IMG/VR virus record: IMGVR_UViG_3300020391_000004
Location: 1 to 64,000 of that record
DNA from: a virus
Length of the DNA: 64,000 nucleotides
Reading direction: 5' to 3' (one strand)
In this document: positions 46,154 to 61,143 of the stretch, in pieces
Position numbering within the stretch: the stretch's first letter is position 1
How the letters are laid out: every line of letters starts with the position of its first letter
Notes under the pieces: model-generated
Database searches by the model: none
What the model saw: the letters and a program-made list of their open reading frames with translations, nothing else
What the model was told of the DNA's origin: nothing
Made by a program: the position numbers and the translations under genes

Positions 46154-46513
46154 CTACCAATTAATTTCCCAATAGAAATATGTTCCAGATGTACTTTTTC
46201 TTGCAATAGTATATCCTTTGTTTTGAAAATGTGCTATAACCTCATTCATCTGCTCTGTTTTCACAGTGTCTGTGATTGTTCCTTGATATGCCTTGTAATA
46301 ATTTTGACCGTCTGTATCATTGTCAGTCATTGGTGAACCTGTGATAGTTGCACCTTGTATTGTTACTGTGCTTGTATTTGAGATTGACGTAGTAAATGCT
46401 CCAGCAGTAATTGCATTTAATACAGCTACTTCCATTATAGCAATCTGTTGTACAAGTGTATTGTTACCTTGTGCCCTTTCTCTGGCTTGAGAGCCTGTTG
46501 GAAACACTGCCAT
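46154..46513 (-). CDS. Small structural protein
   Basis: 119 residues. MAVFPTGSQARERAQGNN then a Thr/Ser/Gly-rich middle (TTSISNTSTVTIQGATITGS) and a C-terminal YTIARKSTSGTYFYWEINW. The composition is typical of phage virion proteins. Its ATG overlaps the stop of the 46513 gene by one base. No fold recognised. Confidence 0.5.
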   Translation of the reverse strand: MAVFPTGSQARERAQGNNTLVQQIAIMEVAVLNAITAGAFTTSISNTSTVTIQGATITGSPMTDNDTDGQNYYKAYQGTITDTVKTEQMNEVIAHFQNKGYTIARKSTSGTYFYWEINW

Positions 46514-48024
46514 TACTTTTTGCCTTTTAAGAAGTTTCTAAATTTAGATTGCATTGATTCCGTCTTAACATCTTTAGGCTTAGGACCCTTACCAGATATC
46601 ATTCTTCCAAAGTCTATATTTTTTGTTTTAGTTTCAGTTTTTTTCTTTTTACCTGTTGGCTTATAACCACTTGCGAATGCTGCCTTGCGTTGTGCATCAC
46701 TTGCAAATCCTTCGTCTGTGTTTGCAGCTCTTGTACGATCTCTTTGTTCTTCATCTGGGCCGTCTGAGTCTGCTGGGTTTCGGCGATTAGCATCTTTTTC
46801 TGCCTGGTAGTAATACTTGGTACTAATTTTATCTCTTAACTTTTGTGCTTCTGGACCAATACTTCCTTCATTAGAATGCATTGCATTTATACCATTTATA
46901 ATCATTAATTCTGGACCTGTACCATACAATTGTGTCACCATCTTAGCAACTTTGCCATGCTGATTTTCATCTTCAAGTTCTTTTACTTTAGCAAAAAACT
47001 TTTTTATATCATATCCAAATTCACTTGTTGGTATTGCTTCTGAGATTCCTTCATATACAGGAACAATTTTTTGTGCTCTAGAAGCTACTGCATATAAACC
47101 TTGAATATGCTTATACATTGTTGCTAATTGGTCTGTTAAGTCACCGTTGTCCATGTCGCTTATTTCATTAATTTTTTCATTGAGGGTGGCAATATCTCTT
47201 ATAAACATACGTAACTGATTTTGCATCTGTCTTGCTTTTACTTTTTCGTAATCAGCAGGTTCTTGTTCATTTATATCAGCAGTCACTTTTTTCTTTTTAT
47301 TGTATTTGTCTTTTATTTTGCCAATCTCTTCAGCACTTGCACCACTACCAGCTGCACTTTGTATCTTGGTCATGCCTTCTTTACCATATTTTCTTACACC
47401 ACCTTTGTATAAGACACCACTTTCACCTACTGCTTTATCTTCCATCTTTACTTGGCCCATTGCAAAGTTTTGAACTTTCATCATACCTGCTTTTGTTTGC
47501 AACATGCGTTCTAGTTTGGCTTTGTTTGCATCATTTACTGCATCATAAACTTTTGTAATAGCACTAGCAGTAAACAAATCTACTTTCATAGTTCCATCTT
47601 GAAACTTTACTGGCATATTTTGTTTGTTTGTTACAATTTTTTTAAGTGTATCTATTGCGCCTTCGTTGATTTCTATATGTTCTCTTGTTCTCACTGCACT
47701 TCTCGCCATTTGTGTTATACGTTCATCCGGAGATGGTTGGTTACTTGGTTTTGTGTTATCTACTGCTTTGTTATCACCATCTGCACTCATAAACGTTACA
47801 GTATCTTTATCAAATTTTGCAATAACATTTGCTAGTTGTGGATTTGTATCATAAACTGTTTTAAATCCTTCATAGTCCATAACTACGCCTGCGTTCTTTA
47901 GCATTTGTAAAAAGCCGTTCATGCTAAGTTGGCCTTGCTGGTTTCTAGAACCTGCTTTGGTCTGAGCCAGCATGGCTGCACTCATTATGGCATCAACTGC
48001 ACTATCTACTTCAAAGAATCGCAT
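46513..48024 (-). CDS. Probable head-internal protein with capsid-targeting-like N-terminus
   Basis: 503 residues. The start MRFFEV fits the shared signature. A site INE-GA (residues 119-123) matches the T4 prohead protease consensus [LI]-x-E|[AG]. The bulk is helical and Lys/Asp/Glu/Asn-rich (KAKLERMLQTKAGMMKVQ), with a basic C-terminus (KKKKTETKTKN) that could contact DNA. It may be an internal head protein processed during maturation; no homologue is named. Confidence 0.5.
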   Translation of the reverse strand: MRFFEVDSAVDAIMSAAMLAQTKAGSRNQQGQLSMNGFLQMLKNAGVVMDYEGFKTVYDTNPQLANVIAKFDKDTVTFMSADGDNKAVDNTKPSNQPSPDERITQMARSAVRTREHIEINEGAIDTLKKIVTNKQNMPVKFQDGTMKVDLFTASAITKVYDAVNDANKAKLERMLQTKAGMMKVQNFAMGQVKMEDKAVGESGVLYKGGVRKYGKEGMTKIQSAAGSGASAEEIGKIKDKYNKKKKVTADINEQEPADYEKVKARQMQNQLRMFIRDIATLNEKINEISDMDNGDLTDQLATMYKHIQGLYAVASRAQKIVPVYEGISEAIPTSEFGYDIKKFFAKVKELEDENQHGKVAKMVTQLYGTGPELMIINGINAMHSNEGSIGPEAQKLRDKISTKYYYQAEKDANRRNPADSDGPDEEQRDRTRAANTDEGFASDAQRKAAFASGYKPTGKKKKTETKTKNIDFGRMISGKGPKPKDVKTESMQSKFRNFLKGKK

Positions 48025-54000: not shown

Positions 54001-55368
54001 TTATTTTGCTCTCAATTTATCGAAGTATCCACTTCCAGGCCCACTCTTAATTGGTTTAAAATCTAAAACTTTATCAGGTGCTTTTCTGCCTTTGTAAATT
54101 ATATCTGTATCTTTTTTTGGATCATAAGGTCTGTATTTTGGACCAGGCACTACAGAAACTGGTGTAATCGGTCTTTGTCTTAGTGGTGTTGTGTTTTTTT
54201 GCACTCTATTTTTATTTTGTACTCTATTTTTTGGATCTACCTTAGGACTTAGTTTTGGATCTAATTTTGGATCTAACTTAGGATCAAGTTTAGGATCTAA
54301 CTTAGGACTTAGTTTAGGATCTAACTTAGGACTTAGTTTAGGATCTAGCTTAGGCAATGTTTTTATTTTTACTTTTGGTTGAACTTTAGGTTTAGTAATT
54401 ACTTTGTCAAAATCCGGATCAAAATCTTGTTTAATTTTTTTCTCTAGGTCTTTTTTAATTTTATTTTGTACTTTTGGTGTGACAATAGTTGTTGAACCGT
54501 CATTGTTATTAATTGTTGTTCCTATTTTTGGTAACTTCTTGACATCTACTTTAGGTGCTTTACTTTTATCTATAACAGGACCAGTAGGCTCTTTTACTTT
54601 AGGTTCACTACTACTTCCTCCGAAACCAAATAATCCTTTAATACCGTCAATTACTTTATCTACTATGTTTTTATCTTTATTTTTAATTACATTATCGATA
54701 CGTTTATTGACTTTATCAATTGTTTTCTTAGTATCACGGACATCTTTTCCGCCACCCTGAAATTTTTTAGGAGTTTTATCGCCACCCGACACATTACTTC
54801 CACCTGGTGGTTTATTGCTTCCGCCTCCGCCAAATTTATTTCCACTTCCGATACCGGAATCTTTTCTCTTTTTAGCAATGTCTTTTAATTTATCGCCAAC
54901 CTTTTTTGCAATCTCTTCTTTTTCTTTATTTGTAAGTTTACGTTTTAATCCTTGAGGTCTAAATCTACCTGGTATATCAAATTTTTGACCTTTTTTAGGT
55001 CCTGATGTATAAGTGCCCGTAATATTAGGTTCTTTCTTAGGTTTTAAACTAGGACCAAACAGATCCCTATCGCCTTTTTTTACATTGTTTGGTTTAAACT
55101 GATTAGGCTTAACTTTGTTACCTTTTTGTAGTTCTTTAGCTACCTTATTAACACTATTAGGATTATTTTTTAACCACTGTGATACTCTACCAGCATTTTT
55201 ACGTGTTAAATTAAGACCTAGTGAACGTAGTATTTGAAACAATGCACCACCTATTGCAATTGTTCCTGGATTAATTACAAATTCATTAAGATGATCCCTC
55301 TGTGAACAATATATACCTATTGAGTCTTCTCTTAGTGTTGTTTTATTTTCAAACTCACGTAATCTCAC
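54001..55368 (-). CDS. Pro/Lys-repeat protein with capsid-targeting-like N-terminus
   Basis: 455 residues. MRLREF and LRE-D (12-15) give the signature and a cleavage-like site. The middle (about 60-340) is rich in Lys/Pro/Gly with many GKK/PKK blocks. A tandem tetrapeptide P-K-L-[DS] repeats about 11 times near 330-375. The product is likely disordered and strongly positively charged, so it may condense or escort DNA inside the head. The DNA repeats are at 54239-54355. Confidence 0.55.
   Translation of the reverse strand: MRLREFENKTTLREDSIGIYCSQRDHLNEFVINPGTIAIGGALFQILRSLGLNLTRKNAGRVSQWLKNNPNSVNKVAKELQKGNKVKPNQFKPNNVKKGDRDLFGPSLKPKKEPNITGTYTSGPKKGQKFDIPGRFRPQGLKRKLTNKEKEEIAKKVGDKLKDIAKKRKDSGIGSGNKFGGGGSNKPPGGSNVSGGDKTPKKFQGGGKDVRDTKKTIDKVNKRIDNVIKNKDKNIVDKVIDGIKGLFGFGGSSSEPKVKEPTGPVIDKSKAPKVDVKKLPKIGTTINNNDGSTTIVTPKVQNKIKKDLEKKIKQDFDPDFDKVITKPKVQPKVKIKTLPKLDPKLSPKLDPKLSPKLDPKLDPKLDPKLDPKLSPKVDPKNRVQNKNRVQKNTTPLRQRPITPVSVVPGPKYRPYDPKKDTDIIYKGRKAPDKVLDFKPIKSGPGSGYFDKLRAK
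54239..54355 (-). repeat. Tandem 12-nt repeat encoding P-K-L-[DS]
   Basis: About ten units of the type CCTAAGTTAGAT / CCTAAACTAAGT are read on the minus strand. They alternate DP/SP and probably expand or contract by slippage. The frame is preserved. Confidence 0.7.
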
Positions 55369-56795
55369 TACTTGCTCCAGTTCTTGACTGCATTAAAGTT
55401 GTTCTTTGAAAACTCCATACGATCTACTAGTTTTACTGCACCATTTTCTGTGCCTATAGCTACAAACCCTTCAGGGTTAACTACTTGATAGCCTTTGTCT
55501 GTTCTTAACAATGTCTGTATAGTGTCTACTTTATTCAATTTATTTATTAGCATATTCTTAAGTGCAATTATGTCTTTGTAAACTGCTAGTGCGCCTGATA
55601 TTCCCTTCATGTTTTTAGTTACATATTCATTTTGGGCATTAATTTTATCTGTGCGTCTTTTTACTGCAGGACTGGCTGGATCTTGATTCTTAAGTTTTGA
55701 TATCTCTTTTTGCACTTTACCATTATACCAATTACTAAAATCTTGTACAAAAACATCTGGCTCAGTAGTCTGCGTATCACCCCTACGTATTCTTGCATTT
55801 ATATATTGCATGAATAATTCTTGATATTCTTTATTATTTACTGTTTCGAAGTTAGCAGTTTTCATTGCTTTAGCAGTATCGTTTACTCCAATTAGTATTT
55901 GTTTATTTTCTTCTGGAGTAAGACTTGCTTGTCCACTTAGGTCTTTATAAGTAGCATCATCAAACCATACGTCTTTAGTTTTATTATATCCACTTATGTC
56001 TACACCAAAACTTGCCTTCATATCTTCCATGTTATCGCCTGTATAGGTTGTGTGAAATATCATACCCATTTGACTTTGTGCTATACGTTTACCTAAATTA
56101 CTGTCCTTAGGTACTGCATAAGCAATTGTATTAGGCTGAAATATAAAACTTTCTTTTCCGTCTATTTCTCCGTCTTCTAAGTCTGCCTTAGTATACATCA
56201 TGTCACCTTGTACAACTCCTTGTATACCTAATTTTGAAAGTAATTGTAATGCTAGTGCAAGTTTTGCACGTAGGTTGCCTTCGTATCCATAGCGATCTAA
56301 GTCTTCCATACTTTTTACAAGTTTACCTGTTTGACTAAAAACACCTTTAGTTCCTACAAAAAACTTTCCGTCTGCAGGATCTATACCTGTAAATATTGCT
56401 GGTGCACCATCCCACTTTACTGTAAGACCTTTACCTACACTACCACCTTCTTCTAGCATATCTCTAACACTATTGATATACTGTAGTGCTTCCTTGGCAC
56501 CACTAGCACCTTTAAGAAATACTAAATCCTCAATATGTTCTAAGTGTAGATTCTTGCCTTCTTTATCTTCTAAAGTAATATCGTCTGTAATTTGTGCAAG
56601 TTTTTTACCCATGTCAACTGCTGATGTAGTATTTGAATTGTCACTACTACTACCACTAGACGCCAGAGTACCAGCCGCTGCTCCTATAGTCCTAATTGCG
56701 GCTGCACCTACTCTTGCCGCACCTGCGACAACGGCTGCTACTACAGGAGCAATTTCGTTTATTTGTTTCCTATTTTTAAATTCTCTTAGACGCAT
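55368..56795 (-). CDS. KxDG nucleotidyltransferase (ligase-like) with capsid-targeting-like N-terminus
   Basis: 475 residues. MRLREF plus INE-I (12-15) gives the signature and site. An Ala/Gly-rich stretch (about 15-50) follows. The core motif K127-W-D-G in LTVKWDGAPAIFTG is motif I of covalent nucleotidyltransferases (ligases and capping enzymes). FFVGTKGVF follows as motif III-like, VVQGDMMYTK, and PEGFVAIG plus VKLVDRMEFS as motifs IV and V (compare T4 Rnl1 EGYV...K). An ATP-dependent RNA or DNA end-joining enzyme, packaged in the head, is a reasonable reading; the C-terminal partner domain is not assigned. Confidence 0.65.
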   Translation of the reverse strand: MRLREFKNRKQINEIAPVVAAVVAGAARVGAAAIRTIGAAAGTLASSGSSSDNSNTTSAVDMGKKLAQITDDITLEDKEGKNLHLEHIEDLVFLKGASGAKEALQYINSVRDMLEEGGSVGKGLTVKWDGAPAIFTGIDPADGKFFVGTKGVFSQTGKLVKSMEDLDRYGYEGNLRAKLALALQLLSKLGIQGVVQGDMMYTKADLEDGEIDGKESFIFQPNTIAYAVPKDSNLGKRIAQSQMGMIFHTTYTGDNMEDMKASFGVDISGYNKTKDVWFDDATYKDLSGQASLTPEENKQILIGVNDTAKAMKTANFETVNNKEYQELFMQYINARIRRGDTQTTEPDVFVQDFSNWYNGKVQKEISKLKNQDPASPAVKRRTDKINAQNEYVTKNMKGISGALAVYKDIIALKNMLINKLNKVDTIQTLLRTDKGYQVVNPEGFVAIGTENGAVKLVDRMEFSKNNFNAVKNWSK

Positions 56796-57039
56796 TGCTT
56801 TCGTTTACTTTTCTAATTCCACGTACAAATCTTGTTTTATCTTGATGTTTAATACTATTCAATAATCTTCTTTCCAAGTCACCTGCGACTGTGCTGTCAT
56901 AGTGCTTGTGCATTTCGTTAATAAGATTGATGGCGCTCTCTATCACGTTAGTTGCTCGACTTTCTAAAACATGTTGCCTATCTTTTTCTACAATCATGCT
57001 GTTTAGTTCGTGTAAAATACTACGAGTCTTTTTACGCAT
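56776..57039 (-). CDS. Small hypothetical protein
   Basis: 87 residues, helical and charged: MRKKTRSILHELNSMIVEKDR, LINEMHKHYDSTVAGDLERR. It overlaps the ligase-like gene start by 20 nt. No family recognised. A late promoter lies 23 nt upstream. Confidence 0.45.
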   Translation of the reverse strand: MRKKTRSILHELNSMIVEKDRQHVLESRATNVIESAINLINEMHKHYDSTVAGDLERRLLNSIKHQDKTRFVRGIRKVNESNASKRI

Positions 57040-59445: not shown

Positions 59446-61143
59446 ATGAAGATACCCAAAGATGCGAAGGCTCAATTAGAACGATTACTCGGCAGATTCA
59501 TAAGGCATATTCCGAACAATACTGAATATCATAACAGGCTTATCGAAGAACTAGAGATCATACTCAGACTTCGTTTCGTCGATTACTTCCTAACAATTTG
59601 CGATGTACTGGCGCTAACCAAAGACATAACACATATGACTCGTGGTTCAGCAGGGTCTAGTCTCGTCTGCTACCTACTTGGTATAACAGACGTGGATCCC
59701 ATAAGATGGCAAATACCGGTAGCACGTTTCCTAAATCCTTTAAGGGATGACTTACCAGATGTAGATATAGACTTTCCACACTGGCAACAGGATGCCGTTA
59801 TGCAAAAAATATTTGCTAAATGGCCCGGAAAAAGTGCTCGTATCAGCAACTATGTAACTTATAAAGAAAAGAGTGCAAGGCGTGAAGCCGCACGACGTCT
59901 AGGTGCATCTGGTAAACTTCCCCGTGGCTTTAAATACGAAGATTTAGATATAGACAAGGAAGAAGCAATGAGAATCGAACGAAAATTATTAGGCAAAAAA
60001 AGAGCAATATCAAAACACTGTGGAGGAGTTCTTATATTCAAACACAACATGCCAAAAAGCCTAATAAATGCAGACAATCAAATATTATTAGACAAACGTG
60101 AAGTAGAAGACTTGGAGCATCTTAAAATAGATATCCTTGCTAACCGAGGACTTAGTCAACTGTTAGAAATAGATGCAGACACACCTCTAGAAGCATACCC
60201 AGAAGAAGATTACGAAACAAGTAAATTATTGTGTAGCGGAAATGTAATAGGAGTAACACAAGCAGAATCTCCTGCTATGAGAAGATTATTCCAAGCAATA
60301 CAACCAAAAGGAAAAAGCGACTGTGTATTTGCTACGGCACTAATAAGACCAGTAGCAACTACAGGTAGACAGAAAGCCAGTTTCTTTCAAGACTGGACAG
60401 AACAAAAATTAGAAGATACTATTGTATACGAAGATGATGCAATTAAAAAAATATCAAAACTTATAGGTTGCGACATGTACGAAGCAGACATGTACCGTCG
60501 TGCTTTTGCAAGTCGTGACGAAGAGAAAGTTATGCAGTTCATGGAGAAGATGGGCGACAGTGAAAACAAAGAAGAGATTATAAAAGAACTTTATGGACTA
60601 GGAAACTTTGGACTATGCAGAGCTCATGCAGTAAATTTAGGCAGACTAATTTGGGCATTAGCATATCAGAAAGCACACAATCCAAAACAGTTTTGGAAGG
60701 CGGCACTTAAACATTGTCAAGGAAGTTATAGACGTTGGGTACATAAAACAGAAGCAAAGAATGTAGGATGGGATTTACGTGAACTAGGATATCCAAATGG
60801 TATCACAGAGTCACCACAACAACAATATAAACGTTATGGTTATTGGACACAACCAGAGTTTATGCCAAATATGTTTATACAAGAAACCTGGGGAGATAGA
60901 GTAAACTTTGCAGGACTTGTTGCTAACGGAAGAGTATTCAAAGGCGAACAAGGGAGATACGTTACATTCTTAACATTAGGTATTGCTAACGGTGAATACG
61001 TTGACGTAACTGTTAAGAAACCTTTTGGACATAGAGACCACGATGTTGTAGTAGGCAGTGGGAAGGTGCGTTATAGTAACGGTGCTCGTTATATAGATTG
61101 TTATGATGCTAAAGGTCATAGGCTACATCAGTATCTAAATTAG
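59446..61143 (+). CDS. C-family DNA polymerase core (DnaE-like), without the N-terminal half
   Basis: 565 residues. It begins in the palm region: TRGSAGSSLVCYLLGITDVDP matches the DnaE GRGSxAGSLVxYxLGITDxDP motif. LPDVDIDF (D105, D107) supplies two catalytic Asp, and LKIDILANRG (D229) the third, as E. coli D401, D403 and D555. The fingers continue with LCRAHAVNLGRLIWALAYQK. A C-terminal OB-like fold (TFLTLGIANGEYVDV) is also seen. The PHP domain and first ~340 residues of PolIIIalpha are absent. It is convergent with the helicase with no gap between the stops. Confidence 0.85.
   Translation: MKIPKDAKAQLERLLGRFIRHIPNNTEYHNRLIEELEIILRLRFVDYFLTICDVLALTKDITHMTRGSAGSSLVCYLLGITDVDPIRWQIPVARFLNPLRDDLPDVDIDFPHWQQDAVMQKIFAKWPGKSARISNYVTYKEKSARREAARRLGASGKLPRGFKYEDLDIDKEEAMRIERKLLGKKRAISKHCGGVLIFKHNMPKSLINADNQILLDKREVEDLEHLKIDILANRGLSQLLEIDADTPLEAYPEEDYETSKLLCSGNVIGVTQAESPAMRRLFQAIQPKGKSDCVFATALIRPVATTGRQKASFFQDWTEQKLEDTIVYEDDAIKKISKLIGCDMYEADMYRRAFASRDEEKVMQFMEKMGDSENKEEIIKELYGLGNFGLCRAHAVNLGRLIWALAYQKAHNPKQFWKAALKHCQGSYRRWVHKTEAKNVGWDLRELGYPNGITESPQQQYKRYGYWTQPEFMPNMFIQETWGDRVNFAGLVANGRVFKGEQGRYVTFLTLGIANGEYVDVTVKKPFGHRDHDVVVGSGKVRYSNGARYIDCYDAKGHRLHQYLN

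Follow-up and report, generated by a model that had tools for sequence, protein, structure and literature searches.

What does a near-universal cyanophage gene that lacks an assigned function encode? We addressed this question for one member of the family, which lies in a window of 64,000 nucleotides (positions 1 to 64,000 of the IMG/VR record IMGVR_UViG_3300020391_000004; the whole record has 131,614 bases and appears incomplete). The gene is an open reading frame (ORF) for 475 amino acids on the minus strand at 55368-56795, with an ATG start at 56795, and the plus strand over the same interval is riddled with stop codons. Its product matches the Pfam family PF19782 (DUF6267) with 335.7 bits against a curated cut-off of 27. 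Neither this family nor phrog_455, which the protein also matches, has an assigned function, and DUF6267, PF19782 and phrog_455 are named in no paper of the literature searched. The best query found DUF6267 in 471 of 50,697 phage records, 371 of them Synechococcus-named; for comparison, 376 Synechococcus-named records carry the gp41 helicase. An earlier note had proposed a nucleotidyltransferase of the KxDG type that is packaged in the head. We are highly confident that the window protein is a ligase-like KxDG nucleotidyltransferase, and DUF6267 most likely represents a branch of the KxDG covalent nucleotidyltransferases (the polynucleotide ligase/capping superfamily) that is divergent and had no name so far. 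This reading gives the gene a directly testable function.

Predicted catalytic core of the DUF6267 protein

Enzymes of the superfamily are described by a scheme of motifs I, III, IIIa, IV and V. The gene, its domain and the corresponding motifs are located in the window as follows.

55368..56795, minus strand: DUF6267 gene, predicted KxDG ligase-like nucleotidyltransferase (PF19782, E 5.7e-100; phrog_455, E 6.3e-97)
55383..56552, minus strand: DUF6267 domain, residues 82-471 (Pfam)
56406..56417, minus strand: motif I, K127-W-D-G (residues 127-130), invariant in 117/117 sequences and aligned with KLDG of ligases like that of Naegleria gruberi (NgrRnl)
56202..56210, minus strand: motif III, Q196-G-D198, with Q and D in 117/117 and G in 116/117; QGE in NgrRnl-like ligases
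56127..56141, minus strand: motif IIIa-like F219-Q-P-N-T, with P221, N222 and T223 in 117/117
55467..55472, minus strand: motif IV, E442-G443, in 117/117
55419..55433, minus strand: motif V, K455-L-V-D-R459, with K and R in 117/117

The order of KWDG, PEGFVAIG (residues 441-448) and VKLVDRMEF (residues 454-462) given in the earlier note was confirmed. Among the 58 open frames of at least 150 codons in the window, only this ORF contains the ordered pattern K-x-D-G ... E-G-h-h ... K. This uniqueness, together with the invariance in relatives, indicated that the motifs are more than chance.

Conservation was counted over 116 relatives plus the window protein. The relatives came from IMG/VR and genome contigs, and only 12 of the 80 loci L121-L200 were used. 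Eleven of 127 ORFs had been dropped beforehand, either as open at the 3' end (L017, L024, L035, L113, L115 and L116), for containing X (L087, L089 and L118) or for a missing crop anchor (L063 and L091). Residues invariant in all 117 sequences were K127, W128, D129, G130, P132, K150, Q196, D198, P221, N222, T223, Y226, H248, T249, E442, G443, V445, K455, R459, F462 and N466; the sole exception within motif III was one Gly-to-Ala change. Thus K127, the predicted site of adenylation, on whose conservation the earlier note had staked its reading, was kept in 117 of 117 sequences, and motifs III, IV (E-G) and V (K) were present in order in the family. The lowest identity to the window protein was 31% in a 67-row alignment (A2).

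More distant members delimit this core. The very distant S-CREM2 gp87 retains QGD, EG and KLVDR and reads KIDG at motif I, where W128 is changed, so the invariant core is K-x-D-G. The short forms of S-RIM2 (298 residues) and EniLVp02 (360 residues) retain motifs I, IV and V with a shrunken region between IIIa and IV; in place of QGD their motif III reads QAD and MAD, respectively, and both lie outside the 117-sequence count.

Resemblance to polynucleotide ligases

An AlphaFold model of residues 72-475 built with 67 sequences had a mean predicted local distance difference test score (pLDDT) of 87.8 and a predicted template modeling score of 0.83. A first model (full length, 38 sequences) had been set aside with a pLDDT below 50 over residues 423-475. 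When the Foldseek candidates from the PDB were given a second look with VIA, rows 1-38 were all RNA, tRNA or DNA ligases. The top match was NgrRnl (Z 7.9 over 181 residues, root-mean-square deviation 3.9 A), and Trl1 (Z 7.1), T4 Rnl1 (7.0), TbREL1 (7.0), T4 Rnl2 (6.8) and archaeal RNA ligases were also found; lower in the list came an NAD+ ligase together with a capping entry. The first unrelated row was DnaK, with Z 5.1 over 71 residues. ATP-dependent DNA ligases matched with Z about 5. Our conclusions on membership do not lean on families missing from these lists.

The alignment with the NgrRnl structure 6vt9 ends at model residue 397 and chain residue 338, an offset of 59. Extended to E442 (model residue 371), this offset would place motif IV on NgrRnl E312, which the PDB titles name among the residues mutated in the 6vt9 series. 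The model also showed one large addition.

55527..55916, minus strand: helical insert of about 130 residues between IIIa and IV, residues 294-423 (model secondary structure)

A C-terminal OB domain is a defining part of DNA ligases and capping enzymes. The window protein has no such domain, because it ends 20 residues past K455.

Profile comparison gave a weak match in the same register. S-CREM1 encodes a close NgrRnl homologue, SCREM1_113 (E 1e-102), and an NgrRnl-like profile was built from 33 sequences (P0014 and 32 of 79 loci). Alignment with hhalign placed KWDG of DUF6267 on KLDG and QGD on QGE, together with the next strand. The score of 27.0 lies above those of all 200 column-shuffled controls (mean 14.9, standard deviation 2.8, maximum 26.7), and the reversed profile scored 16.9. 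The match was confined to the first half, with motifs IV and V outside it, and a forced global alignment of the two profiles was unsuccessful. Searches of PDB sequences with phmmer and hmmsearch matched no ligase, NCBIfam gave nothing meaningful, and Pfam returned only DUF6267 and a sub-threshold NET2A_C, with no match to PF09414, PF01068 or PF01653.

Several of these results weigh against a ligase-like identity. Foldseek itself found nothing significant in the PDB, its best match being a bacterial DNA ligase at E 0.57; all VIA Z scores were below 8, a range in which the tool warns of a merely common arrangement; and the hhalign probability was low (3.5-8.7%). Motif V has one Lys and an Arg (K-h-h-D-R) instead of K-x-K, and motif III has Asp in place of Glu. 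We nevertheless consider the fold evidence persuasive, because the match list is homogeneous and the motifs are present. Taken together, the invariant motifs, the fold and the weak in-register profile match uphold the nucleotidyltransferase reading. A helical head or scaffold protein with coincidental ligase motifs would account for the long helices of the insert and for a virion protein among the neighbors; this is very improbable and strongly disfavored, since the catalytic motifs are all invariant and in order and the fold matches are dominated by ligases.

Candidate head-targeting peptide

The residues that precede the catalytic core fall into three parts.

56754..56795, minus strand: residues 1-14, MRLREFKNRKQINE, capsid-targeting-like peptide with a possible prohead-protease site, I-N-E cut before I
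56571..56753, minus strand: extension, residues 15-75, Ala/Val-rich, then Ser/Asn-rich
56526..56546, minus strand: HLEHIED, residues 84-90, conserved before motif I, with H84 and H87 invariant

In T4, IPII and IPIII both begin with MKTYQEFIAEA, and roles of positions 4, 7, 8 and 10 in the IPIII-type targeting peptide have been described (PMC9026906). DUF6267 relatives begin, for instance, with MHNFKSFITES, MLSFKNYLAEA, MKSYKQFLVEA, MRFREIVAEA or MKLFEIKNKPAPWLLVEA. The sister protein L001 (86% identity, a tblastn match) starts with MRLREFRNIVEA, and the signal-bearing DUF6267 protein of Methylophilales phage Melnitz with MLTLINFSKYITED. A strict IPIII-type pattern occurred in 9 of 66 non-redundant relatives and in 12 of the 478 remaining ORFs from those loci, the 12 including several signal-bearing neighbors such as cytidyltransferases (shuffles, 0.0002). 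The site [LIVMF]xE[AGS] within residues 4-25 was found in 39/66 relatives and 79/478 other ORFs (shuffles, 0.097). On the tree, where the signal label followed a looser pattern that admits the window protein, the label changed five times and was absent from the Kyanoviridae-like clade.

The extension is missing from close relatives such as L001 and resembles the N-termini of a family encoded just downstream in relatives (score 70 with L002 and 74 with L027, against shuffle maxima of 46 and 49). The match was weaker for L020, L030 and L033, still above their own shuffles, and the L023 and L031 downstream proteins showed no resemblance. The gene downstream in the window itself (54001-55368) matches only the first 14 residues. 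This looks like a swap of N-termini between two genes that both bear signals.

Published virion mass spectrometry bears on the role of such peptides. Cytidyltransferase/NMNAT-like proteins are listed in virions of S-SM1 (T4-GC190; in the part of PMC3037559 available), S-SZBM1 (_140; PMC9146016, Table 1) and S-CREM2 (gp154; in the accessible part of PMC10665884), and these proteins begin with MKKFSAFLNEA, MRFRQFIIEA and MKNFSSFLTEA, respectively. Among the phages readable for both, head peptide and virion detection therefore coincided in 3 of 3, as far as these sources extend. The DUF6267 protein of S-SM1, T4-GC71, is not named in that part of PMC3037559. Two signal-less DUF6267 proteins, S-SZBM1 _141 (MAKNTHLEH...) and S-CREM2 gp87, were not among the 30 listed virion proteins (PMC9146016) and the accessible rows of Table 3 in PMC10665884, respectively. 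Such a distribution, with peptide and virion presence on the cytidyltransferase and signal-less DUF6267 unreported, is what packaging directed by the peptide would produce.

The other side of the packaging question is that virion presence of DUF6267 is reported for no member in the portions of the virion data compared, the two signal-less proteins among them. The window protein also fails both N-terminal pattern tests, the residue after its INE being Ile, which is atypical downstream of a cut. Furthermore, no PF03420, PF04586 or S-SZBM1_178 prohead-protease match was found in the apparently incomplete 131.6-kb record, which does contain terminase, head-closure and tail-sheath genes. The capsid-targeting-like N-terminus and cleavage-like site described in the earlier note are present without being a textbook match, and are much clearer in relatives. 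Its claim of head packaging draws indirect support from the relatives' peptides and from a virion-found neighbor family with the same peptide, and we judge packaging of the window protein moderately likely.

Other proteins bear related N-termini. In the same record, at approximately 120.98-121.49 kb (L290 16982-17488), a 168-residue virion structural protein (phrog_14802) begins with the near-perfect signal MKSFKSYLVEN, so head signals do occur in this genome. Another possible bearer is a 503-residue protein at window positions 46513-48024 (minus strand) that starts with MRFFEVDSAVDAIMSAAML and has no PHROG match. In L013 (3783-5348) and L027 (2888-4456), and also in L014, L019, L028 and L029, a domain of about 120 residues (...DCPIFAIALSR...) lies between MRFREI and the DUF6267 domain; the L013 stretch has no Pfam match.

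Genomic context

Two genes adjoin the DUF6267 gene in the window.

56776..57039, minus strand: upstream 87-residue gene, phrog_11854 virion structural protein (PHROG match)
54001..55368, minus strand: downstream 455-residue gene, GTG start, with an MRLREF-type N-terminal peptide as in the window protein

The upstream gene overlaps the DUF6267 gene by 20 bases and is kept in close relatives. The downstream product is Lys/Pro-rich, with tandem Pro-Lys-Leu-Asp-type repeats near its C-terminus, and Pfam and PHROG searches gave no match at a trusted score.

When the family was divided into two halves, which are sets by search of origin rather than tree clades, the half without the window had 31 loci whose downstream sequence was long enough, and 26 of these showed a cytidyltransferase/NMNAT-like motif no more than 5 kb away on that side; in the half that contains the window, the motif was found in 0 of 28 loci. 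None was found in the window's own record, in a search run without a positive control. This neighbor often bears the same head peptide; T4-IP-like signals are found on such proteins in L099 (7194-8474), L109 (7637-9595), L117 (6926-8077) and L083 (9607-11559), and S-SM1 (L296 6902-9488) has two adjacent cytidyltransferase-annotated genes directly after DUF6267. The phrog_455 profile spans both domains (DUF6267 at approximately columns 20-341, cytidyltransferase at 420-722). A fusion protein was considered and rejected: ACG-2014f, Bellamy, Syn10 and P-SSM5 have separate genes for the DUF6267 region, so the profile is the one source of the fusion idea.

Further enzymes are encoded near and downstream of DUF6267 in some loci. 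L112 (7463-8071) encodes a head-signal-bearing protein that resembles HAD acid phosphatases, L096 (1239-1826 and 1819-2511) has an adenylate-kinase-like protein bearing a head signal and a Zeta-toxin-like kinase, and L110 (5854-6378) has an adenylate-kinase-like protein. These could possibly be end-healing or nucleotide enzymes of the same packaged set. Elsewhere in the window, a 565-residue protein at 59446-61143 (plus strand) matches only the catalytic and finger domains of DNA polymerase III alpha and may be a split or minimal form of that subunit.

Possible roles of the enzyme

The balance of probability tips, by a modest amount, toward a KxDG ligase-like enzyme that is targeted to the head and seals breaks on genome entry. 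By analogy with the superfamily, K127 would attack a nucleotide donor, ATP being the most likely one, and become lysyl-AMP. From there the AMP would move to the 5'-phosphate end of a strand that the helical insert would help to hold, and an adjacent 3'-OH would displace AMP and seal the break. In the window lineage a short head-targeting peptide at the N-terminus would bring the newly made enzyme into the prohead, where the prohead protease would trim it; the enzyme would then leave the head together with the DNA, so that it could seal breaks at once on entry. Judged by the modeled fold, an RNA substrate (nicked or cleaved tRNA) seems a little more likely than DNA; the gene neighborhood and the lack of other ligases in Kyanoviridae relatives favor DNA. 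If this explanation is true, phages inject a strand-sealing enzyme along with their genome.

The enzyme might instead be a cytoplasmic DNA ligase that seals nicks at the replication fork and replaces T4 gene 30, its head signal being secondary and lineage-specific. PF19782 was present in 10 of 11 phage records examined, T4 being the exception. None of the nine Kyanoviridae records with DUF6267 contains a DNA ligase match to PF01068 (over the cut-off) or PF01653, and PF09414 occurs in one, S-CREM1. Homologues of the gene 30 ligase were not found in cyanomyoviruses according to the accessible part of PMC2984593, which leaves distant homologues open. DUF6267 is a candidate to fill this gap and may double as the "missing" ligase of Kyanoviridae. 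The gene list in the S-CREM2 paper (PMC10665884) includes an entry for a ligase. In T4-like members uvsX, gp41 and mazG come immediately before DUF6267, and the head signal is missing from the Kyanoviridae-like clade. Against a replication role, Vibrio phage EniLVp02 holds DUF6267 in addition to the PF01068 and PF09414 matches that it shares with T4 (Straboviridae), the host NAD+ ligase could serve instead, the OB domain is lacking and RNA ligases head the fold matches. The apparently incomplete record of the window has no PF01068, PF01653 or PF09414 match. We regard the replication role as unlikely, though a serious contender. Of equal, limited weight is the view that the N-terminal peptides are some other assembly or regulatory feature and that the enzyme stays in the cell. 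It is compatible with the replication role and with the non-ligating role below, and it fits the atypical window peptide and the silence on DUF6267 in the consulted parts of the S-SZBM1 and S-CREM2 virion data; the T4 IPII/IPIII spacing of the relatives' peptides (position roles in PMC9026906) and the coincidence of peptide and virion detection in 3/3 phages make it doubtful.

A less probable alternative still is a covalent nucleotidyltransferase without ligase activity, whose acceptor for AMP or another nucleoside monophosphate would be a 5' end, a protein or a small molecule and which would share a pathway with the NMNAT/cytidyltransferase-like partner. The HxGH-type neighbor in one half of the family, the two-domain span of phrog_455 and the NadR-like fusion of the L099 partner with an AAA_33/Zeta-type kinase speak for it. 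However, the window's half (0 of 28 loci) lacks the partner and none was found in its own record, so the enzyme seems not to need one, and we consider this quite unlikely. The head-targeted sealing enzyme could also be part of something larger, for which we see a slim but appreciable chance. DUF6267 would then found a new family of virion-delivered ligases in tailed marine phages, forming a kit with the packaged NMNAT-like enzyme, to which some loci would add kinases and a HAD phosphatase with the same head signal. The injected kit would heal and seal ends and restore NAD+ before phage gene expression, undoing host cleavage of tRNA or DNA and NAD+ depletion, and the unpackaged form in T4-like cyanophages would be the long-missing phage ligase.

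Relation to known systems

DUF6267 is ligase-core-like, yet it lies outside the Rnl1, Rnl2, Rnl5 and DNA ligase families as defined. NgrRnl (Rnl5; PDB 6vt9/5cot) is the best fold match and shares the order I-III-IIIa-IV-V, with motif I and QGD/QGE in register. Unlike NgrRnl, DUF6267 has no NgrRnl-type N-terminal domain, only about 45 domain residues preceding motif I, and no family-level sequence match. It also has the helical insert that separates IIIa from IV, an Asp where motif III of NgrRnl has Glu, and KLVDR instead of the NgrRnl-type FKAIS at motif V. S-CREM1 carries both an NgrRnl-type ligase gene and DUF6267.

T4 RNA ligases 1 and 2 have a KxDG-type motif I, and both resemble the window protein in fold, whereas DUF6267 has no Pfam RNA-ligase match and no C-terminal domain past motif V; we know of no head packaging of the T4 Rnl proteins. 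ATP-dependent DNA ligases (T4 gp30, PF01068) share the KxDG core fold and differ in their C-terminal OB domain and in the PF01068 match that DUF6267 lacks.

With T4 IPII, IPIII and Alt, DUF6267 relatives clearly share a short N-terminal targeting peptide and a prohead-protease-like site; the differences are that the predicted cargo is a ligase-like enzyme and that the peptide of the window protein is atypical. The cyanophage virion NMNAT/cytidyltransferase (T4-GC190) is an HxGH nucleotidyltransferase of a different fold, and no gene of its type lies beside the window gene, but it shares the type of targeting peptide with DUF6267 relatives, and the two genes adjoin in many phages.

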